From: Methanopyri archaeon
GTDB taxonomy: Archaea > JAADCQ01 > Methanopyri > Methanopyrales > Methanopyraceae
Reading direction: 5' to 3'
DNA: 37,520 nt
NCBI GenBank assembly: GCA_013154335.1
Contig: JAADCQ010000026.1
Coordinates: 1 to 37,520 of the forward strand
Shown here one piece after another: positions 2,588 through 11,807 of this stretch. The translations under genes and the position numbers were made by a program. Position 1 is the stretch's first letter; each line of letters opens with the position of its first letter. The notes beneath the pieces were generated by a model. That model made no database searches and had not been told where the DNA came from. It saw only the letters and a list, made by a program, of their open reading frames with translations.

Positions 2588-3043
2588 TTACGATTTCTTC
2601 CTGAGTATGACGCGGCAGTGTCCCCTACCCTCCGGTTCGTGCTCGAGTTCCATCTCCTCGTCGAGGGCTTCGAGTATCTCCTGGAGCATGGTGGTGAAGG
2701 CGCAGACGTTGTACCCGTACACGTGTTCCTCGAGGTTGGGGTGTTCCTCGACGAAGGCGTCGATGAGGTCCCGTGGGCAGATGCGGCATCCCCTGACGTG
2801 GACGACGGTTTCGCCGTCCTTCTCCTCCTTCTCGGTGTTGGCGCCGAGGAAGCTTTCGGCGATGCTCACGGCGAGTTCGATGGGGTCTTTTTCCTTGAGT
2901 TCGGGGTGTTCCTCGAGCATGGCTTTGACGGCGTTCCTGCAGACCATGCGTCTGAGGGTGGGGGCCTTGTTGCCGAGTAGTTGTGCGGACGTCACGACGT
3001 AGGAGTAGAGGAAGTAGCGGAGGAAATCGCGGGGTTCGATCAT
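2588..3043 (-). CDS. Small Cys-containing protein, V4R-like, unknown function
   Basis: A 151-residue soluble protein starting at ATG 3043. I do not recognise a named family with certainty. The second half has the pattern VHVRGCRICPRD, then YGYNVCAFTTML, then GHCRVILRKK. These spaced cysteines and the alternating strand/helix pattern recall the V4R/hydrocarbon-binding fold also seen at the C-terminus of the regulator at 11067-11807. It follows frhB after 71 bases holding a strong hairpin, so it is probably cotranscribed with the CODH/F420 genes and may be a small sensor or ligand-binding partner of that system. That role is inferred from position only. Confidence 0.7.
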   Translation of the reverse strand: MIEPRDFLRYFLYSYVVTSAQLLGNKAPTLRRMVCRNAVKAMLEEHPELKEKDPIELAVSIAESFLGANTEKEEKDGETVVHVRGCRICPRDLIDAFVEEHPNLEEHVYGYNVCAFTTMLQEILEALDEEMELEHEPEGRGHCRVILRKKS

Positions 3044-3049
3044 GTGGGT

Positions 3050-3114: not shown

Positions 3115-4029
3115 TTAGAGGGGCACGTTGGGGTGGTAGGGGCGCCAGGTGGCGCACTTGGAGGCCTGGATGCGGGTCTTCTTGTCTTCGGAGAGTTTCT
3201 CCACGAGGTTCAGGTTGCCCTCCTCGGGGTCCTTGGTCTCGAGGACGTCGTTCTCGACGGCGGATTGGACGAGTTCTTCGGCGGTTTCGGTCCTGACTAT
3301 GAGTACGTTCCACCCGTCGGGGGCTCCGACGGATCCGACGCTGACGTCGGCTTCCTCGGCGGTGAAGTCGGTGCAGTACTCGCAGGCTTCGTTCGAGTAG
3401 CGGCCTAGTTCCTTGACGGGTACGGTGTGTTCCTCGCCGTCCTTGGTGAGGACTATGAACTTGCCCTTGCTTATGTCCATGCGCTCGACGTCGTCGATGT
3501 CGACGTTCATGTCCTTGAGTAGGGCCAGGAGGTTGTCGTACTCGAAGTTCTCGGTGCAGAATATGCCGACGGTTAGGGCTACGGCGTCGGTGTCGGGTAG
3601 GCCGTACGGGTACTTCTGGGCCTTCCTGACGGCCGTGATCTGGCAGGGTGTTCCGACGATGGCCACGGATTCGTGGGCGGCGAGGGCTTCGTTGAGGAGG
3701 GATACGTTGGGTGATATGGAGTACTTGGAGCCGGCGGCTTCGATGAGTTCGTCGGGGTCGGTGATGATCCTGGGTTCGGGTTTCCAGCCGTTCTTCTTGA
3801 CGGCGGCCACGACGGCGTCGACGTGGCCCTCGTCCAGGGCGTGTGCGAGTAGGGCGGTGGTGGTTCCTCCGTCCTGTCCGGCCTCGCGTACGCGTTCGTC
3901 GGTGGCCCTGGTGAGGAGGACGGTCCTGTACTCGCCGACTAGTTCGGGGTCGAGGGGTCTCTCGCCGCCGTCGGTTCCGGTCTCGGTCTCTTCCTCCTTG
4001 CCCACGAGTTTGCGGAGGATCTTACGCAT
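3115..4029 (-). CDS. frhB: F420-reducing hydrogenase beta subunit (FrhB-like)
   Basis: FrhB-family flavin/iron-sulfur subunit, the site where coenzyme F420 is reduced or F420H2 oxidised in F420-dependent oxidoreductases; cytoplasmic. The 304-residue protein has the family landmarks DGGTTTALLAHAL near residue 53, GSKYSISPN near 100, VGTPCQITAVRKA near 124-136, FCTENF, and CEYCTDF with later cysteines for an Fe-S cluster. Length is typical of FrhB, with a charged N-terminal extension of about 35 residues. It starts at ATG 4029, 7 bases after the frhG stop. It is the piece that makes F420 the likely electron partner of the neighbouring CooS homologue. FrhB proteins also serve non-hydrogenase enzymes, so the family does not prove H2 chemistry. 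Confidence 0.92.
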   Translation of the reverse strand: MRKILRKLVGKEEETETGTDGGERPLDPELVGEYRTVLLTRATDERVREAGQDGGTTTALLAHALDEGHVDAVVAAVKKNGWKPEPRIITDPDELIEAAGSKYSISPNVSLLNEALAAHESVAIVGTPCQITAVRKAQKYPYGLPDTDAVALTVGIFCTENFEYDNLLALLKDMNVDIDDVERMDISKGKFIVLTKDGEEHTVPVKELGRYSNEACEYCTDFTAEEADVSVGSVGAPDGWNVLIVRTETAEELVQSAVENDVLETKDPEEGNLNLVEKLSEDKKTRIQASKCATWRPYHPNVPL

Positions 4030-4035
4030 CGTGGT

Positions 4036-4761
4036 TCACCCCCTGGTGGTCTTGAAGGAGCGTGGGCAGCTCGCGAAGCAGGTGCCGCATCTGATGCATC
4101 TCTCCTGTCTGATGACGGGTTTCTCGTCCATGACGATGGCCATGGCGGGGCACGCGGTGGAGCAGGTGCCGCAGCCGACGCAGAAGAGGTCCTTCTCTAT
4201 GACGTCGAGGTCGCATCCCAGGCAGAGGTCCTTGTTGGACGTGAGTAGGACGTCTTCGACGGGTAGTTCCGGGCCGGTGACGGGTGCGGGTAGGTCCGGT
4301 TTGAGGGCGTGGTAGTCGCCGGAGAGTACCTTGTAGGGTCTGAGGGCTTCCTCGTCCCTCTCGTCGAGGGCTTGGAGGAAGGCGGCTATGGCGTCGGTGG
4401 TGGGTGGGCATCCGGTGATGGCGTAGTCGGTGTCGGTGAACTTGGCGGCCGGGAAGACGGTGAAGTGGTACCTGTCCGGGTCCCTCATGCCGATGACGTG
4501 TCTCTCGAAGCCTCCGGTGGCGGCGCAGGATCCGAGGGATACCACGGTGCCGACGGCCGAGGTCGTTTCCTGGAGTTTTTCGAGGGTCTCGTGGTCCGTG
4601 AAGTCGACGGCTCCGTCGATGAAGAGGACGTCGGCGTCGGGTTTGCCGGTGTCGCCGTCCAGGCTGGACCAGACTATCTCGTGGCCGGTTTCGTGGCACG
4701 CTTCCTCGAGGTTGCGGGCGCAGGCGCCGCACGCCATGAGGGAGAGTACGGCGATCTTCAT
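4036..4761 (-). CDS. frhG: F420-reducing hydrogenase gamma subunit (FrhG-like)
   Basis: Electron-transfer small subunit of the F420-reducing hydrogenase type. The N-terminal half is a NiFe-hydrogenase small-subunit domain with all four proximal-cluster cysteines: CGAC (C11, C14), SLGSCAATGG (C78) and TGCPPT (C117). The C-terminal half is ferredoxin-like: CLGCD, CVGCGTCSTACP and CIRCGTCFASCP, enough for further [4Fe-4S] clusters leading to FrhB. At 241 residues it is of usual size. The ATG at 4761 follows the frhA-like stop by 13 bases. Unlike its large-subunit partner it keeps its cluster ligands, so an electron path from FrhA or CooS through FrhG to FrhB looks intact. Confidence 0.93.
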   Translation of the reverse strand: MKIAVLSLMACGACARNLEEACHETGHEIVWSSLDGDTGKPDADVLFIDGAVDFTDHETLEKLQETTSAVGTVVSLGSCAATGGFERHVIGMRDPDRYHFTVFPAAKFTDTDYAITGCPPTTDAIAAFLQALDERDEEALRPYKVLSGDYHALKPDLPAPVTGPELPVEDVLLTSNKDLCLGCDLDVIEKDLFCVGCGTCSTACPAMAIVMDEKPVIRQERCIRCGTCFASCPRSFKTTRG

Positions 4762-4774
4762 CTCGGGTCACCCC

Positions 4775-5866
4775 TCAGTGGGTGAGGCAGCGGCCGGAGA
4801 GGCCGAGGGCTTTGATCACGGTCGGGGCGTGTTCCTCCTCGAGGTCCTTCAGGACGCGGCCGGCGACCGCGGCCTTGACGTTGGAGGGTGTCACCATGAG
4901 GGCCTCGTCGACGCGGTCGTTCCTCAGCTTGATCGTGACGAGTAGGGTTCCTTCCGGGGCTTCGACGGCCGCGTGGCCTTCCCCGGAGGTGTACTCGACG
5001 TCGGTCTTCACGTCGGCGTTGGGGTCGAGGTTCTCGGAGGTCTCGGCGATCTTTTCGAGGGATTCGACGATCTCCTCGGCCTTGGCGGTGTAGGCGTCGA
5101 GTGGGTGGTCGGTGAGGTTCTTCCTGGCTTGGGGGCCGACGAGTGTCGGGTTACCGTCCACGAGGGCGACGTGGTTGTTGGCGAGTTCGAGGGCGCTCTT
5201 CATGCGGTAGAACTCGTCGGGCGGTACGATCTCGACGTCGTCGGGGGTCAGGTCGGCCTTGTAGCCGGGTTCGCCGTACGTTTCCACGTTCATCTCGGCC
5301 TGGATCTCGTCCTTGAGGTCGTCGACGGCGGATGCGGTGTCGTCCTTGATCTTCTCGGCGGTCTCGAGGGCTTCCTTGGCGGCGTTCTCCACCTTGGCGG
5401 TGGGGATGGTCTCGAGTTCGAGTCCTCCGGGTGTTATGGCGGGTGGGTGGTCGGGTTTGCGTCCCAGGGCGTGGAGCACCTTCTTGGCGGCTTTGATCAC
5501 GGTGTAGAGGGCGTCGGCGTCGAGGTCGAGGTCGGATTTGAGGAGGCTCGTGGCGTGGGATCTCACGGTGTTGGCGGCGTTGAGGGCTTCCCTGGCCTCG
5601 GTGGCGGCGTCGGGTACCTGGACTTCGAGGGCGTTCTCGATGGCTTCGGCCACGGCGAGGCCGGCGCTGGCGTCGCAGCCCGCGCAGACCCTTTCGGCGG
5701 CCACGATCGCGAACTCGGGGTGTTTCTCGAGTACCAGGGTTTCCCAGGCTAGGGGGGTGGTGCTGGAGCATACCTCGGCGTTGACTATCACGCCGTCGGA
5801 GACCTCCATGACGGCGTGGATGTCGCCCGGGGTGCCGGTCGGGATGCGTACGGTCTTGATCTCCAT
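4775..5866 (-). CDS. frhA: FrhA-like NiFe-hydrogenase large subunit, degenerate active site
   Basis: Homologue of the F420-reducing hydrogenase large subunit, 363 residues against roughly 400 in the usual family. Family landmarks remain: RVCAGC (C61, C64) for the N-terminal RxCxxC, AITPGG, and VTPSNVKAAVAGR near the end. The C-terminal DPCxxCxxH becomes G-L-S-G-R-C-L-T-H (355-363), so the first of that Cys pair is Ser357 and the Asp-Pro is lost. The EAPRG motif reads EAPEG. The protein stops right after the His, so there is no tail for the maturation protease, and no frhD-like protease gene is present. A functional Ni-Fe centre therefore looks unlikely. It is second in the cooS operon. The symbol denotes homology, not proven activity. 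Confidence 0.85.
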   Translation of the reverse strand: MEIKTVRIPTGTPGDIHAVMEVSDGVIVNAEVCSSTTPLAWETLVLEKHPEFAIVAAERVCAGCDASAGLAVAEAIENALEVQVPDAATEAREALNAANTVRSHATSLLKSDLDLDADALYTVIKAAKKVLHALGRKPDHPPAITPGGLELETIPTAKVENAAKEALETAEKIKDDTASAVDDLKDEIQAEMNVETYGEPGYKADLTPDDVEIVPPDEFYRMKSALELANNHVALVDGNPTLVGPQARKNLTDHPLDAYTAKAEEIVESLEKIAETSENLDPNADVKTDVEYTSGEGHAAVEAPEGTLLVTIKLRNDRVDEALMVTPSNVKAAVAGRVLKDLEEEHAPTVIKALGLSGRCLTH

Positions 5867-5879
5867 ACGGGAGGTTCCC

Positions 5880-5891
5880 CTTTTCGAAAAG
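5880..5891. other. Palindrome in the cooS-frhA gap
   Basis: CTTTTCGAAAAG is a perfect 12-base palindrome in the 49-base gap between the cooS stop and the frhA-like start. Its role is unknown; it could be a processing site or a weak internal regulatory element. Confidence 0.35.
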
Positions 5892-5915
5892 TTATTGGGG
5901 GTGAAGAAGGAAGGC

Positions 5916-7832
5916 TTAGATACCTAGGCGCTTCCTCTTCTCCTCGATCTTCTCGGCCAGGATCTCCGCGGCCTTGACCATGTCCGTCTCCAGGATCAGC
6001 TCGCCTCCCGTCAGGTCGGGGAGGTCCTCGAGCAGCGTCTTGGTGACGACCTCGCTGCCCGTGACCGGCGGTATCGGGCTCACGTGTAGGGTGATACCCA
6101 GCGCCAGGGCGGAGCAGCCGTCCGCCAGGGCCTGTTCCTCCAGCCACTGCGGGGCGCTGGCGACGGCGGGCACGTCCGGGATGTCGATCTCCTCGCCGGT
6201 CTGCTCCCTGAGTATCTCGGCGATCTCGAAGACCAGGTGCTCGATCTTACCGATGGCCAGACACGGTCCGTAGTGCAGCACGGGCGGTATACCTAGCTCC
6301 TCGCACACCTGTCTGAGGTTCTCGCCCGCGAGCTTGGCGGCCTCGGGGTTGAAGAGCCCGGCGTTGGCCAGGGCCCCGTTCACGCATCCGGCTCCGAGGA
6401 CGAGGATGTCCCTCTTGATCAGCTCCTTGGCCAGCGTGGCCGCGGGCACGTTGTGACCGCCGCTCGACAGGTTGGTACAACCGACGACGGCGGCTACTCC
6501 CCTGATCGTGCCCTCGGTGATGAGCTCGAGCACGTTCTCCCAGCCGACGGCCTCCTCTATCGAGAAGTAACCGAAGCCGACGACGTTCTCGTGCTTGTGC
6601 GTCGGGTTGTAGGTCTTGCCCTCGAGCTTGGACCTGCGCTGCTTGAAGGCCTCGATGGCCTTCTTGACGACGGTCTCGGCGACCTTCTCGGCCTCGTCCG
6701 GGTCCCAGGTGATGAGCTCGGCTCCCCACACCTTGGCCACGTCGTCCACGGCCATGAGCTTGACGTCCAGCTTCTCGCCGTAGAACTTGAGGCCCGGGAA
6801 CGTGCAGTTGAACTCGCTCACGATCGCGTCGACCAGGCCGGTGGCGGCGAGGGCCTCGGTCGTGAAGTTGTTACCGGCGAAGCCCGCGTACGTGTCGGGT
6901 AGGTGCTCGGCCCTGGCCTCGAAGTCGTCTCCCACGCACGTGGCTCCTATGATGCGGATGCCCTTGGCGCCCGCCGCCTTGGCCTCGTCCTCGAGTTTCT
7001 CGGCGGCGTCGGTCAGGTACTTCTGCAGGGGCATCTGGTGACCCGTGGTCATGATGTTGACGTAGTCCGGGTCCAGGATACCGGGACCGCCTTCGGTCTT
7101 GGTGATCTCGGGGCTGCCGAACAGGATGTCGTTGATCATCTCGACGCCGAACAGCGCGATCGGGCCCGTGATCAGTCCGAGCCTGAGCGTGTGGAGGAGC
7201 ATGTCCTCGGGGTCGGAGTTCAGGTTGGTGCTCGTCTTGACGAGGGCGTCGTGGATCTCGGACTTGGCTCCGCCCGGGATCAGGCCCATCTCCTCGTACA
7301 TCTCCACCCTCCAGTCGGGGACGACGGCCTTGAACACCTCGGACTCCTCGTACCTAGGCTTGTAGATGTCCTCGAGGATGAAGTCGGCGATCTCCTCGGC
7401 CACGTCCTCGGGCTTGCCGGACGCGTCGATCCCGTAGACTTCGGCCGCGTACTCGAGGGCCTTCTCGTCCCTCACCTCGTACGGGGACTCCTCGTCGGGC
7501 ACGGACTTGAGGGCCCTGGCGGCGTTCTCGAGGCAGTGCACGTAGCACGCGGTACCGGCGGCCACGTGCCTCAGGAAGTTCCTGGCCACGATCACGTCCG
7601 CGGTGGCTCCGCACACGCCTCTCGGGGTCTTCTCGGTTATCCTACAGGGGCCGTTGGAACAGATGTTGCACCAGACGCCCTGCTTACCGTACGGGCACTT
7701 GGGGAACTGGACGGGCCACCTGATGTGCGGGGTCTCGATCTCGGGGATCTCCTCGTTGAGTTCCTTCGCGTGCTCGACGAGGGGCTTGACGACCTCGTCC
7801 GTGTACGGGCAACCGTTCTTCTTCTCGGCCAT
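5916..7832 (-). CDS. cooS: CooS-type Ni carbon-monoxide dehydrogenase homologue
   Basis: A 638-residue homologue of the monofunctional homodimeric Ni-Fe-S CO dehydrogenases. Compared from memory with Carboxydothermus CODH-II, all six C-cluster ligands are present (H265, C299, C343, C452, C483, C524), as are the B-cluster cysteines (C55, C58, C63, C74). Differences: the second D-cluster Cys is Trp54 (C46 kept); the catalytic-His position in AAGTACYVH is Tyr97; the catalytic Lys of the EKA motif is Gln567 (EEQALADG). The metal site is thus kept while the acid/base residues and part of the D-cluster are altered. No CooF or CooC-like gene is nearby; frhAGB follow immediately. First gene of the operon, ATG 7832, with GGTGGTG upstream. 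Confidence 0.9.
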   Translation of the reverse strand: MAEKKNGCPYTDEVVKPLVEHAKELNEEIPEIETPHIRWPVQFPKCPYGKQGVWCNICSNGPCRITEKTPRGVCGATADVIVARNFLRHVAAGTACYVHCLENAARALKSVPDEESPYEVRDEKALEYAAEVYGIDASGKPEDVAEEIADFILEDIYKPRYEESEVFKAVVPDWRVEMYEEMGLIPGGAKSEIHDALVKTSTNLNSDPEDMLLHTLRLGLITGPIALFGVEMINDILFGSPEITKTEGGPGILDPDYVNIMTTGHQMPLQKYLTDAAEKLEDEAKAAGAKGIRIIGATCVGDDFEARAEHLPDTYAGFAGNNFTTEALAATGLVDAIVSEFNCTFPGLKFYGEKLDVKLMAVDDVAKVWGAELITWDPDEAEKVAETVVKKAIEAFKQRRSKLEGKTYNPTHKHENVVGFGYFSIEEAVGWENVLELITEGTIRGVAAVVGCTNLSSGGHNVPAATLAKELIKRDILVLGAGCVNGALANAGLFNPEAAKLAGENLRQVCEELGIPPVLHYGPCLAIGKIEHLVFEIAEILREQTGEEIDIPDVPAVASAPQWLEEQALADGCSALALGITLHVSPIPPVTGSEVVTKTLLEDLPDLTGGELILETDMVKAAEILAEKIEEKRKRLGI

Positions 7833-8097: not shown

Positions 8098-8589
8098 GTG
8101 ATATGGGAGGACGTCCCGCTACCCTCGGACCCGGTCGAGAGGATCCGGGCCCTACGCGTACTCAGGCAGGTCTACGTCAGGGGAAGATCCCCGAGGGTGA
8201 GGGCCACCTTCAGAAGGAGCGGACGCAAGACCCACGGCCCGTACATGGTGGCGTCTTTCCCCAGGACGCTCGATCACCCCGAACCCAGGGTGATGTACCT
8301 GGGGAAACCCGGGACCGAGACCGTCGCGTTCGTCGAGTGGCTCTCCGGGATGTCGGACGCCTCGGCGTTCAGACTGGCCAGGCTCGCGATCAGACAGTTG
8401 GGGACGGCCCTGTCCACGCTGAGGAGGGCCCCCTCCGGCGTGGAGACCGTGGTCAGGGTGTTGGCGTCCGTGTTCGAGCTGGAACCGGGCGATGAGGAAC
8501 CCGATGAACCCCCACCCGGTCCCGTGGCCGAGGTCCTGGGCCCGTGGAAGGCGGGGTTCTCACGTTTCCTGAGGTCGATGCTGGGCTGA
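8098..8589 (+). CDS. Uncharacterised 163-residue basic protein
   Basis: I do not recognise this family. The GTG start is supported by GGAGG at 8084-8088. The N-terminal 60 residues are Arg-rich (RALRVLRQVYVRGRSPRVR, then RRSGRKTHGPYM), which could suit nucleic-acid binding. A helical middle (ASAFRLARLAIRQLGTALS) and an acidic, proline-rich linker (GDEEPDEPPPGP) follow. There is no signal peptide or membrane segment. It ends 4 to 13 bases before the next gene (depending on that gene's start), so the two probably form one transcript diverging from cooS. The layout, a basic protein followed by a Panacea-like partner, loosely recalls toxin-antitoxin pairs but is not diagnostic. Confidence 0.65.
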   Translation: MIWEDVPLPSDPVERIRALRVLRQVYVRGRSPRVRATFRRSGRKTHGPYMVASFPRTLDHPEPRVMYLGKPGTETVAFVEWLSGMSDASAFRLARLAIRQLGTALSTLRRAPSGVETVVRVLASVFELEPGDEEPDEPPPGPVAEVLGPWKAGFSRFLRSMLG

Positions 8590-8602
8590 GGGGGTGCCCT
8601 GT

Positions 8603-9028
8603 GTGCACGCGAGGTGTAGGTGCCACTCGGCCGAGCCGGCGGGCGTCGACCTGAAGCCCCTCGTGAAGTACATCGTGGCGGTGAGGCCGGGGATCGACAA
8701 GAGATCCCTGTTCAGGACGGTGTACCTGATCGACAAGGGGTTCGAGAGGGAGACCGGGAGGCCGCTCACGGGGACGAACTACGGGCACTGCATGCTGTTG
8801 AAGGCCCCGTATTTCTCGGTCGACGTGAAGGACGCGATATTCGAGCTGTTGGAGTCGGGTGAGGTCGAGTTACGGGCGGAGAGGGACGAGGAGGGTAGGT
8901 TGGTGTCCACGTACAGGCCGGTGGGATACGGGCCCGAGGACGTGGAGCCGGAGTTGAGGAGGGCCTTCGGGTTGAACGGTCCCAGGTGGGAGGTTTTCGA
9001 GAGGGTTCTGGAGAGGGCGTTACCCTAG
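8603..9028 (+). CDS. Panacea/SocA (DUF4065)-like protein
   Basis: A protein of about 141 residues. The core LFRTVYLIDKGFERETGRPLT, then KAPYFSVDVKDAIFELLESG, follows the helical pattern of the Panacea/SocA domain (tyrosine-rich helix, GRPLT turn, a GP-like turn, then a helix ending in LxxxG). Panacea proteins act as antitoxins or as adaptors that bring other proteins to proteases. The short N-terminus contains CRCH. GTG 8603 is preferred over GTG 8594 because the GAGGGGG site lies about 8 bases before it; 8594 would add three residues. It overlaps the convergent DUF166 gene by 9 bases. The family assignment is tentative and comes from pattern, not search. Confidence 0.6.
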   Translation: MHARCRCHSAEPAGVDLKPLVKYIVAVRPGIDKRSLFRTVYLIDKGFERETGRPLTGTNYGHCMLLKAPYFSVDVKDAIFELLESGEVELRAERDEEGRLVSTYRPVGYGPEDVEPELRRAFGLNGPRWEVFERVLERALP

Positions 9029-9772
9029 GGCCTCCTTCAGCGCCCGGAGGGCCGCCTCGATGTGGAGGCGACCGGCCACGTGAAGGGGTGTGTCGCCGAG
9101 CTCGGGATCGACGTCCATGGAGGCCGTGCAGGGGAACGAGTGATGAGCCTCGGAGACGGCCGCCTTGACGCGTTCCGGGTCGGCGTCGACGCCCACCAGG
9201 GATTTGGCCACGTACCACGTGCACCCGCAGGGGGCGGATCTCAGGGTTTCCGCGTCGGTTATCACGTCTCCATCGACCTCGACGGAGATCCTCGGCTTCC
9301 CTATCACGGCGGCCTCGCACAGTTCGTCGAGGGTCGGACCGTCGGGGTCGAGGGTGCAGGCGGGTCTGGCTATCTCGCACTCGATGCCCAGTTCCTCGCA
9401 GGTTTCTCGGAGTTCCTCCGCCGTGTACCTGTCGATCCAGTCGGGGGATTCGACGGGGACGAGGATCGCCCTCGTCTCGGTGTTCTCGGGGAGGGCGAGG
9501 AGGAGGTCGGGGTGTAGTTTCACGGCGATGAGGACGTCGACCTCGGGGAGTTGGGGTAGGTGGCGTTCCGGGTCCTCGATCAGGGGCGGTAGGGACTCGG
9601 GCGGGGGCACCTCCTCGACGGCCAGGATGTCGTCGGCGAGGGAGTACCTCCCGTACTTGCACCCGTCGCACGCGGGCCCGCAAGCCCTGCAGTGACCGGG
9701 TTCGTTGGCGAGGTTCGCGACGAGTCTCTCCGCGAAGGTATCGGAGTAGATCACCGCCACGGTCGGGGCCAC
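9020..9772 (-). CDS. DUF166 family protein
   Basis: A 250-residue archaeal protein of the DUF166 type, which some older annotations label thymidylate synthase without firm support. Near the N-terminus it has a dense cysteine motif, CRACGPACDGCKYGRYS (residues 28-44), likely binding an Fe-S cluster or metal. Later cysteines occur in TCEELGIECEI, ARPACTLD and APCGCTWYVA. The fold appears to be alternating strand and helix with no membrane segment. It lies 8 bases downstream of the tatD-like gene on the same strand and overlaps the convergent 8603-9028 gene by 9 bases. Family membership is moderately sure; biochemical role unknown. Confidence 0.75.
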   Translation of the reverse strand: MAPTVAVIYSDTFAERLVANLANEPGHCRACGPACDGCKYGRYSLADDILAVEEVPPPESLPPLIEDPERHLPQLPEVDVLIAVKLHPDLLLALPENTETRAILVPVESPDWIDRYTAEELRETCEELGIECEIARPACTLDPDGPTLDELCEAAVIGKPRISVEVDGDVITDAETLRSAPCGCTWYVAKSLVGVDADPERVKAAVSEAHHSFPCTASMDVDPELGDTPLHVAGRLHIEAALRALKEALG

Positions 9773-9779
9773 GCGCGCT

Positions 9780-10571
9780 TCACTCCCGGATACGGTAGAG
9801 GGAGGCGGCCTCGTCGTGGACGACGGCGCGGATGGTCGCCTTTTCGACCCCTCTACGCTCGAGCTCCAGGGCGAGTCTCGGGAGGGCGAGTGGATCGGCG
9901 GCCATCGATCCCAGGTCGCTGCTGGCCACCAGTCTCGCCCCGTCGGCGAGGTTCTCGACGATGTCGGCGGCCTCTTCGACGGTGAGTTCGCCGGGTCTGA
10001 GGGTGAGGCCCACGGCGTACCCTTCCTCGGCTATCTCGGGGGCCGTCTCGGGTGAGGCGTGGTCGACGAGCACGAGTTCCCCGTCGATGGGGTGTTCGGC
10101 CAGGATCTTCAGGACCTCGCGGGTTACCTCCTCCTTGTTCCTGCCGGGCGTGTGGACGATGATGGGTAGATCGTACTCGTGCGCGATGTCCAGTTGGGCC
10201 TCGAGGGCCTTACGGGCGGTAGGGGTCACCTCGGCGTTCAGGCCGGTCTCCCCTATGGCCGTGATCTCGTCCTTCTCCACGTGCTTCTCGATCGTCTCGA
10301 GGGTTCCTTCGAGGTCCTCCGGGATGCCGCCGGGGTGGACGCCGATGGCCACGTGGACCTTCAGACCGGCCCTTTCCCCCCTCATCGTTTCGATCTCGAT
10401 GAGTCTCCTGTAGAGGGCCTCGTAGACCTCCCTGGTCATGCCTGGGTACGGGTCGTGGGCGCAGGTGACGACGTGTCTTATCCCGGCGAGGGCCATCTTC
10501 TCCAGGTCCTCGTAGCTCCTGACGTCGAGGTGTAGGTGTGCGTCCACGTATCTCAGGTGGGCTCCCCCCAA
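9780..10571 (-). CDS. TatD-family metal-dependent hydrolase
   Basis: An amidohydrolase-superfamily (TIM-barrel) protein of 263 residues, related to TatD DNases and archaeal TatD-like phosphoesterases. Metal-binding landmarks are visible: VDAHLHLD (HxH) near residue 9, GVHPGG, IGETGLN with the conserved Glu, IIVHTPGR, VLVDHAS and SSDLGS with the final Asp. Substrate unknown; members cleave DNA or phosphate esters in the cytoplasm. TTG at 10571 gives MGGAHLRYVDAH. No clear ribosome-binding site precedes it, and the start directly abuts palindrome copy 3, so a slightly later GTG (MDAHLHLD) is possible. Probably cotranscribed with DUF166. Confidence 0.85.
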   Translation of the reverse strand: MGGAHLRYVDAHLHLDVRSYEDLEKMALAGIRHVVTCAHDPYPGMTREVYEALYRRLIEIETMRGERAGLKVHVAIGVHPGGIPEDLEGTLETIEKHVEKDEITAIGETGLNAEVTPTARKALEAQLDIAHEYDLPIIVHTPGRNKEEVTREVLKILAEHPIDGELVLVDHASPETAPEIAEEGYAVGLTLRPGELTVEEAADIVENLADGARLVASSDLGSMAADPLALPRLALELERRGVEKATIRAVVHDEAASLYRIRE

Positions 10572-10614: not shown

Positions 10615-11001
10615 TTAGCCCTTGAGTTTCTCCAGGGCGGCCATCAGCATCTTCCTGTGGTGCTTCTCGTCGTAGGCCGTGGCCTTGAGCATGGTGATGA
10701 CCTCGTCGTCCAGCTCGTCCGAGTGGTGGTCGGCCTCGTCCATCCTGGTCTCGTACGCGTTCTTCTCCCCTTCGATCATCTCCTCCATCTTCTCGATCAG
10801 GGCGTCCTCGTCGATCTCGACCTTACCGGCTATCAGGGCCGCGGCGGCCGCGTGTCTGGCCTCGTCCATGGCGATCTGCTCGAGTAGGTCGCCGACCTCG
10901 GGGTAGCCCAGCTCCCTGGCGGCGATGGCCATGGCCATGTAGATGCCTACCTCGGTGGTCTCGCCCTTGAACCACTCCTCAAGGTACTTCTCGAACTCCA
11001 T
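10615..11001 (-). CDS. Rubrerythrin-like ferritin-fold diiron protein
   Basis: A 128-residue four-helix-bundle protein related to the diiron domain of rubrerythrin, which reduces peroxide in anaerobes. Candidate iron ligands: E17 (TTEVGIYM), E47 and H50 (MDEARH), E79 in the third helix, and E112 with H115 (DEKHH). The C-terminal rubredoxin domain of classical rubrerythrin is absent, so an external donor would be needed. ATG 11001 is preceded by GGGGTGATGC. A TATA box lies at 11036-11043. The short leader, own promoter and adjacent palindrome suggest an independent, well-expressed gene. Peroxidase function is inferred from family; ferritin-like storage is an alternative. Confidence 0.85.
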   Translation of the reverse strand: MEFEKYLEEWFKGETTEVGIYMAMAIAARELGYPEVGDLLEQIAMDEARHAAAAALIAGKVEIDEDALIEKMEEMIEGEKNAYETRMDEADHHSDELDDEVITMLKATAYDEKHHRKMLMAALEKLKG

Positions 11002-11066: not shown

Positions 11067-11807
11067 TCACCCTTCCGTCCTCTCGGCCTCGAACACGCAC
11101 GCCTCCGCGCCGGCCCCGGAACACATGACCTCCTCGGTCTTCCAACCGTCCCCTTCGAGTTCCTCGAGGACCCCGGCTATCAGACCGGCCTCGAAGTGGC
11201 AGGCGGGCCCGTAGGGTAGGTCGGAGCACTCCATACACCCCTTTATCGACACGATCACCTTGCCGTCCTTCCTCTCGACCTCGATCTCCTTCCCTATCCC
11301 GGATAGGAGCCTCTCGAGGACGCGTTCCGCGTCCTCCTCGTCGAGTTCCCTGGCCAGTTCCCTGCCCACACGTTGTCCCAACTCGTAGAGGATGCCCTCC
11401 GTGTCCACCCCTATGGACTCGAGGATGGCTCTGTAGGAGGCCGCCACGGCGTGGAGTACCGCGATCTCGGGGTCCTCGGACCTCTTCAGGACGTTCTTGA
11501 CGTACTCCACGGCGTCGTCTATCCTGGGCTCGCCTATCTCGACGGGTTCGGCCTTGAGACCGTAGTACTTCTTGGGGATGGCGGGTCCGGGCTCCTCCAT
11601 GACCACGTCGACGAAGCCGGCCTTCTTGAGCTCCTGCAGGTGGTAGTGGACGGTGGATTTCGACATGTCGAGGCGTCGGGCCAGTTGGGACACCGTCATG
11701 GGGCCCTCTTTCCGGAGTATTTCTATGATCTTCCTCCGCGTCTCGTTCCTGAGGGCCTTGGCCAGGTCCTTGGGCACTTCAACCGCCAGCGTCGACACCT
11801 CGGTCAC
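11067..11807 (-). CDS. ArsR-type HTH regulator with V4R domain
   Basis: A 246-residue transcriptional regulator. Residues 12-75 form a winged helix-turn-helix (ALRNETRRKIIEILRKEG, then VSQLARRLDMSKSTVHYHL as the recognition region). Residues from about 115 to the end resemble the V4R (4-vinyl-reductase-like) small-ligand domain, with GCMECSDLPYGPACHFEAG, then VMCSGAGAEACVFEAE; the cysteines may bind metal or a thiol-reactive ligand. It probably senses a hydrophobic ligand, metal or redox state. It has its own orientation-matched neighbours: the CBS genes upstream and the rubrerythrin gene 65 bases downstream, a plausible target. The domain call is confident; ligand and targets unknown. Confidence 0.85.
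   Translation of the reverse strand: MTEVSTLAVEVPKDLAKALRNETRRKIIEILRKEGPMTVSQLARRLDMSKSTVHYHLQELKKAGFVDVVMEEPGPAIPKKYYGLKAEPVEIGEPRIDDAVEYVKNVLKRSEDPEIAVLHAVAASYRAILESIGVDTEGILYELGQRVGRELARELDEEDAERVLERLLSGIGKEIEVERKDGKVIVSIKGCMECSDLPYGPACHFEAGLIAGVLEELEGDGWKTEEVMCSGAGAEACVFEAERTEG

Follow-up and report, generated by a model that had tools for sequence, protein, structure and literature searches.

What is a CooS-type Ni-carbon monoxide dehydrogenase (CODH) homologue doing at the head of an operon whose remaining genes resemble those of the F420-reducing hydrogenase FrhAGB? The question is raised by 37,520 nucleotides of a Methanopyri archaeon (GCA_013154335.1, contig JAADCQ010000026.1, positions 1 to 37,520; genome G000, contig C84 in our set), a stretch referred to here as the window. 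Judging from gene order, conservation and cofactor residues, we consider it probable (about 0.65) that the products of 4 genes form a single CooS:F420 oxidoreductase complex, one that does not use H2. These genes are as follows:

5916-7832, minus strand: cooS, CooS-type Ni-CODH homologue (638 amino acids), from the list of open reading frames (ORFs), with a TIGR01702 match
4775-5866, minus strand: frhA-like (363 amino acids), hydrogenase large-subunit fold, NiFe ligand set incomplete
4036-4761, minus strand: frhG-like (241 amino acids), electron-transfer subunit with the proximal-cluster Cys and two 4Fe-4S motifs
3115-4029, minus strand: frhB-like (304 amino acids), F420/FAD subunit with FrhB_FdhB domains and motifs

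A preliminary description of this DNA had reported the same-strand order cooS-frhA-frhG-frhB, which was confirmed, as were the gaps of 49 bases (cooS to frhA-like) and 13 bases (frhA-like to frhG-like); the last gap, between the frhG-like and frhB-like genes, is 6 bases and not 7, and the extent of 4036-7832 given for the unit leaves the frhB-like gene out. The flanking genes tested included neither a CooF gene nor one for an H2-evolving hydrogenase, in agreement with that description. CooS scored 731 bits against TIGR01702, above the equivalog cut-off of 478, and the FrhA-like (104 bits, cut-off 392), FrhG-like (132 bits, cut-off 246), and FrhB-like (274 bits, cut-off 332) proteins were all below theirs. 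The FrhB-like protein nevertheless matched PF04422, PF04432, and NF006807 above cut-off, including the N and C domains of FrhB_FdhB. Within the frhB-like gene, ARAGORN also called a tRNA-Ala on the opposite strand (3695-3796, plus), probably a false positive.

We searched 394 archaeal genomes for the unit. The window genome is counted with Methanopyrus, on account of its gene content and of the synteny published for M. kandleri (PMC3082573). CooS relatives sharing 55% identity or more were confined to 5 Methanopyrus genomes and 9 genomes of two further genera, taken indirectly as Methanocaldococcus (from named records) and Methanotorris (from the published distribution of CODH group C-3). The cooS, frhA-like, frhG-like, and frhB-like genes lay in the same order and on the same strand in all 14 genomes, spanning Methanopyrus and Methanocaldococcales (methanogens of deep-sea vents), so that the proposed archaeal synteny was recovered in at least three genera. 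A profile built from the 14 FrhA-like proteins matched strongly (373-517 bits) in these 14 genomes and in no others, the same set that carries a D-cluster-deficient CooS; the next score, 225 bits, was that of a divergent protein whose genome has no CooS, and ordinary hydrogenases scored 126 bits or less. The dN/dS values were about 0.1-0.4 for the FrhA-like gene and about 0.01-0.11 for CooS, with no stops. Since gene order, open frames, and purifying selection are shared by 14 genomes, the arrangement is not due to chance. That the FrhA-like gene is a decaying pseudogene was ruled out, with the frame open in 14/14 genomes and dN/dS well below 1. Separately, a Methanocaldococcales genome without CooS (G144) encodes a 395-amino-acid fusion of FrhA-like and FrhG-like parts (L144, 8309-9496) with no FrhB-like gene adjoining; it carries the same degenerate motifs, namely RICHLN, EGGES, and CERC.

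The [NiFe] hydrogenases hold their metal site by two CxxC pairs, L1 near the N-terminus and L2 at the C-terminus, and the canopy Arg and the Glu of the EGH motif have well-known roles in these enzymes. In the window, the FrhA-like protein has both L1 residues (C61 and C64, in RVCAGC), and the first Cys of L2 is replaced by S357, leaving C360 (GLSGRCLTH-stop). The canopy Arg is replaced by E305 (EAPEG), and GDI stands where EGH is expected, with the region of its glutamate altered. The protein stops 3 residues past C360 and has no C-terminal extension, a weak sign by itself because a few hydrogenases naturally have none. Ligand and canopy positions were identical across the 5 Methanopyrus proteins. 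In the 9 Methanocaldococcales proteins, by contrast, L2 is kept (CERC) and the second Cys of L1 is gone (RLCCLNE, RLCYLNE, or RLCCNTE), the canopy residue is Glu, and the N-terminal stretch with EGH is missing. Thus, a full set of four Cys/Sec ligands was present in none of the 14 proteins, with a different ligand gone in each lineage, and the catalytic Arg of the canopy motif EAPRG was absent from all 14 (EAPEG, EGGEG, or ESPEG). A genuine FrhAGB is encoded elsewhere in the window genome, and its FrhA (contig C59) has EGH, RICGIC, EAPRG, D-I-Sec-A-S-C, and a C-terminal extension.

AlphaFold models of the FrhA-like protein had a mean pLDDT of 89.8 (Methanopyrus) and 90.2 (Methanocaldococcales), and their best matches were FrhA structures, with a query TM of 0.92 for the Methanopyrus version against FrhA 9r51 and 0.86 for the Methanocaldococcales version against FrhA structures. 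The protein is predicted to retain the FrhA fold and, by its ligand losses, to be unable to hold a normal NiFe site. The residues R59, C61, E305, G306, R359, and C360 are invariant across the 14 proteins, which suggests that the old NiFe pocket may have been reused for something new. With these ligand losses, H2 can be excluded as the donor with much more confidence than synteny by itself would give.

The other two Frh-like subunits present a different picture. The proximal-cluster Cys and both ferredoxin-type 4Fe-4S motifs were found in the FrhG-like proteins of both lineages, and the FrhB-like proteins have the Fe-S Cys and flavin motifs (QDGG, PCQ, FC.EN, C..C, and GSVG..DGW), so the cluster and flavin/F420 landmarks noticed earlier are real. 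At the level of residues, the wire from the FrhG clusters to the FrhB flavin is intact. Methanopyrus and Methanocaldococcales also have in common an extra FrhG-like segment (LLTSNK-LCLGCD) and an FrhB-like C-terminal tail with an extra conserved Cys, both absent from the M. marburgensis reference stretch, for which the rows were read off printed alignments that span part of each protein. The shared segment and tail point to a module of common origin.

CooS was read against D. vulgaris CooS. All 6 C-cluster ligands (H265, C299, C343, C452, C483, and C524) and all 4 B-cluster Cys (C55, C58, C63, and C74) are present. The D-cluster has one Cys only, C46, with W54 in place of the second (Tyr in Methanocaldococcales). 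At what we take, from general numbering of reference CODHs, to be the catalytic acid-base positions, His is replaced by Y97 and Lys by Q567. These residues mark the protein as clade C, structural group C-3: a complete C-cluster, Tyr/Gln, and a single D-cluster Cys. The available text of PMC6344411 gives the same combination for group C-3 and places it in Methanocaldococcus and Methanotorris. A hybrid site of the CODH-V type (clade D) was ruled out, as the first C-cluster Cys is present (C299) and clade D-like archaeal rows have Glu there.

A genome scan gave 80 named loci, in 6 of which the second D-cluster Cys was replaced by W/Y and in 74 of which it was kept; the scan pattern contained Gln and is uninformative on Gln frequency, and the D-cluster position lay outside it. 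All 6 loci with the replacement were linked to Frh-like genes, two of them ending before frhB, and none of the other 74 had FrhA- or FrhB-like neighbours. The linkage is perfect in these sequences, yet only one or two evolutionary events may lie behind it. The window genome also encodes a CdhA-type CODH. In four Methanopyrus genomes, G002 (C1, 685902-687587) and, with equivalents, G001, G003, and G004, a second CdhA-like ORF (~640-670 amino acids) directly follows cdhA. At another locus (L057, 5506-8776), a ferredoxin-type protein and a CCG-domain protein (HdrC/HdrB-like) precede a clade C cooS and are a possible other electron partner.

The genes around the unit bear on what it may do:

2588-3046, minus strand: small ORF (152 amino acids) without a family match, 68 bases past frhB
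9020-9772, minus strand: DUF166 protein, the upstream neighbour in 5/5 Methanopyrus genomes
9780-10571, minus strand: TatD-family protein, adjoining DUF166 in the window, in L044 and L045, and in several Methanocaldococcus loci
10615-11001, minus strand: rubrerythrin-family protein, near cooS in 5/5 Methanopyrus genomes
11067-11807, minus strand: ArsR-type helix-turn-helix (HTH) regulator with a V4R domain, of MsvR-like architecture

The small ORF adjoins frhB in all 5 Methanopyrus genomes and is a possible extra member of the unit. Two ORFs, one of them DUF1678, lie between cooS and DUF166 (8098-9028, plus strand), and the second is kept in at least 3 other Methanopyrus genomes. Several Methanocaldococcus loci also have DUF166 close to cooS, and in one Archaeoglobaceae genome it is the gene immediately upstream of cooS. 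The rubrerythrin-family gene is the only one found in the G000 assembly. The same pairing of V4R and HTH is found in MsvR, a redox-responsive methanogen regulator (PMC3729527), and the likeness of the regulator here is one of domain architecture alone; with seven V4R stretches above cut-off in the assembly, we estimate the chance of such a neighbour at a few percent. Upstream of the unit, several Methanocaldococcus loci carry genes for a flavodiiron protein (F420H2-oxidase architecture), rubrerythrin, peroxiredoxin, and desulfoferrodoxin; downstream, a hybrid cluster protein (HCP) gene and a NikR-like gene occur in some. Archaeoglobaceae hold the nearest CooS relatives that are not linked to Frh genes, and 4/5 named loci there have genes for a V4R regulator and for cytochrome bd oxidase; at L070, L071, L073, and L088 of this family, a V4R-HTH gene lies on the opposite strand near the clade C cooS and two cytochrome bd genes follow cooS. 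The locus thus lies among oxygen/redox-defence genes in several lineages.

We infer a physical complex, its electron path, and its direction as follows. With H2 chemistry excluded and the FrhG-FrhB wire intact, CooS, as the first gene product of the operon, would be the simplest electron source or sink. The complex would be cytoplasmic, and the CooS-type Ni-Fe-S site, rather than a NiFe site, would trade electrons with F420. The FrhA-like protein, a former hydrogenase large subunit, would now serve as scaffold or adapter, FrhG would relay electrons between CooS and FrhB, and the FAD of FrhB would pass hydride to or from F420, with H2 taking no part. On direction we commit ourselves weakly: because of the Tyr/Gln site and the defence neighbourhood, we tentatively favour F420H2 as the donor, with the CooS site receiving its electrons and carrying out a reduction that serves oxygen/redox defence, at somewhat short of even odds. 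It is more doubtful that a stress compound (an oxygen or nitrogen species, for example) is what the F420H2-driven CooS-type cluster reduces, with the FrhA-like subunit turned into an electron-transfer adapter and its former NiFe pocket (C61, E305, R359, and C360) in a new role.

Several points weigh against this interpretation. A complete D-cluster and any known FrhA-like cluster are both missing, which leaves the electron route from CooS to FrhG unexplained; a cluster held by the remaining FrhA-like Cys residues is possible but speculative. The argument from neighbourhood to a defence role is indirect, and few or no defence genes were found at the Methanocaldococcales loci L051, L069, L053, and L054, the last two of Methanotorris type. 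Boehm and Land considered that clade C CODHs may be regulatory or weakly active. In the CooS tree, the two Frh-linked groups are not sisters, and a single clade is not rejected (approximately unbiased test, p 0.154). Separate recruitment of Frh genes in the two lineages is disfavoured by the shared FrhG segment and FrhB tail.

The same complex could run in reverse, with CO oxidized at CooS and F420 reduced at FrhB for CO scavenging or detoxification, a reading that differs in direction and substrate alone. All C-cluster ligands are in place, the CO/CO2 couple (~-520 mV) is low enough for F420 reduction, CODH:F420 coupling is proven in another CODH, extracts of one methanogen showed CO-dependent F420 reduction, and a nickel-regulator-like gene adjoins the locus in several Methanocaldococcus genomes. 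However, Tyr and Gln stand at the acid-base positions, and in studied enzymes CO oxidation falls when the His and Lys there are mutated, according to the available text of PMC6344411; moreover, the neighbours tested included no gene for CODH maturation, a CdhA-type CODH is encoded in the same genome, and the genes around the unit are for oxygen/redox defence. We therefore regard CO oxidation as a serious though unlikely alternative. The CODH:F420 oxidoreductase of the preliminary description accordingly keeps its conserved unit and its intact wire, and CO as its substrate finds no support in the Tyr/Gln site or beside a separate CdhA-type CODH.

It is less likely still that the unit is a sensor and not a metabolic enzyme, one in which CO, O2, or redox state is perceived at the Tyr/Gln CooS site and in the altered pocket and signalled via F420. 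Boehm and Land proposed regulatory roles for clade C, HTH/V4R regulators are nearby, and the invariant C61, E305, R359, and C360 suggest a pocket still in use, but a sensor could do with less than an intact FAD/F420 subunit plus three conserved 4Fe-4S sites, and the operon has no signalling domain. The published annotations imply a normal F420-reducing hydrogenase beside an unrelated or loosely coupled CooS, and the three subunits are indeed homologous and alike in fold to FrhAGB. We rejected this on the NiFe ligand losses (14/14), together with the canopy Arg to Glu change, the missing C-terminal extension, three scores below equivalog cut-offs, and the genuine FrhAGB elsewhere in the genome; it is hardly credible.

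The arrangement had been set apart from the known CooS-hydrogenase and CODH/acetyl-CoA synthase ones, but it is less new than this suggests. The available text of PMC3082573 (2011) reports cooS-frh synteny in M. kandleri and Methanococcus vulcanius as F420-reducing hydrogenase genes, that of PMC13240472 (2026) describes archaeal clade C with such genes, that of PMC4652020 a hydrogenase in one operon with a M. jannaschii CODH, and that of PMC9012536 FrhB paralogues with CODH subunits in ANME-1; CODH:F420 coupling itself is in PMC11493965, in whose available text an F420-reducing CODH with an FrhB-like subunit was purified and solved from Ca. Ethanoperedens of the ethane-oxidizing archaea. Loss of NiFe ligands is not mentioned in the available text of these five open-licence papers, and no mention of the locus tags MJ0726-MJ0728 was found in the open-licence literature. 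New here are the FrhA-like ligand losses, the association of the CooS D-cluster with Frh genes, and the oxygen/redox-defence setting.

Archaeal clade C Ni-CODHs have been described as neighbours of F420-reducing hydrogenases. Once the "hydrogenase" is seen to have no complete NiFe ligand set, H2 drops out and a defined CooS-F420 electron path is left. If true, a CODH-type enzyme would have been wired to F420 a second time and independently, or the unit would be a redox-defence enzyme of a new kind; with F420H2-driven defence as its role, the Ni-CODH superfamily would gain a new activity, and a NiFe hydrogenase subunit would have met a new fate. M. jannaschii apparently carries one candidate locus, and a genetic system has been published for this organism (cited in the available text of PMC10210160).

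Among known systems, FrhAGB (group 3a; PDB 3zfs, 6qgr, 9r51) has the same A, G, and B subunits, FrhA fold, and FrhG/FrhB cofactor motifs, but here the FrhA-like protein is without full NiFe ligands, canopy Arg, and C-terminal extension, the genes are joined to cooS, and the FrhG-like protein has an extra Cys-bearing segment. The CODH component of the acetyl-CoA decarbonylase/synthase of Ca. Ethanoperedens (alpha2 epsilon2 zeta2) is likewise wired to F420 by an FrhB-like subunit; it differs, as far as the available text of PMC11493965 describes it, in its clade A CdhA, its epsilon and zeta subunits, the absence of FrhA/FrhG, its proven CO:F420 activity, and its place in acetyl-CoA synthase. No other complex is known to reduce F420 with CO. 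Group C-3 of clade C shares the CooS signature, to which Methanopyrus is added here; the degenerate FrhA partner is unmentioned in the available text of PMC6344411. Class I HCP belongs to the same prismane superfamily and is encoded close to cooS-frh in several Methanocaldococcus genomes, but by a separate gene and with another active cluster. Bacterial clade C CODHs with FNOR and CooF have the same Tyr/Gln site and redox partners in the operon, but with an NAD(P)-type partner and an intact D-cluster, whereas the partner here is of F420 type and the D-cluster is broken.

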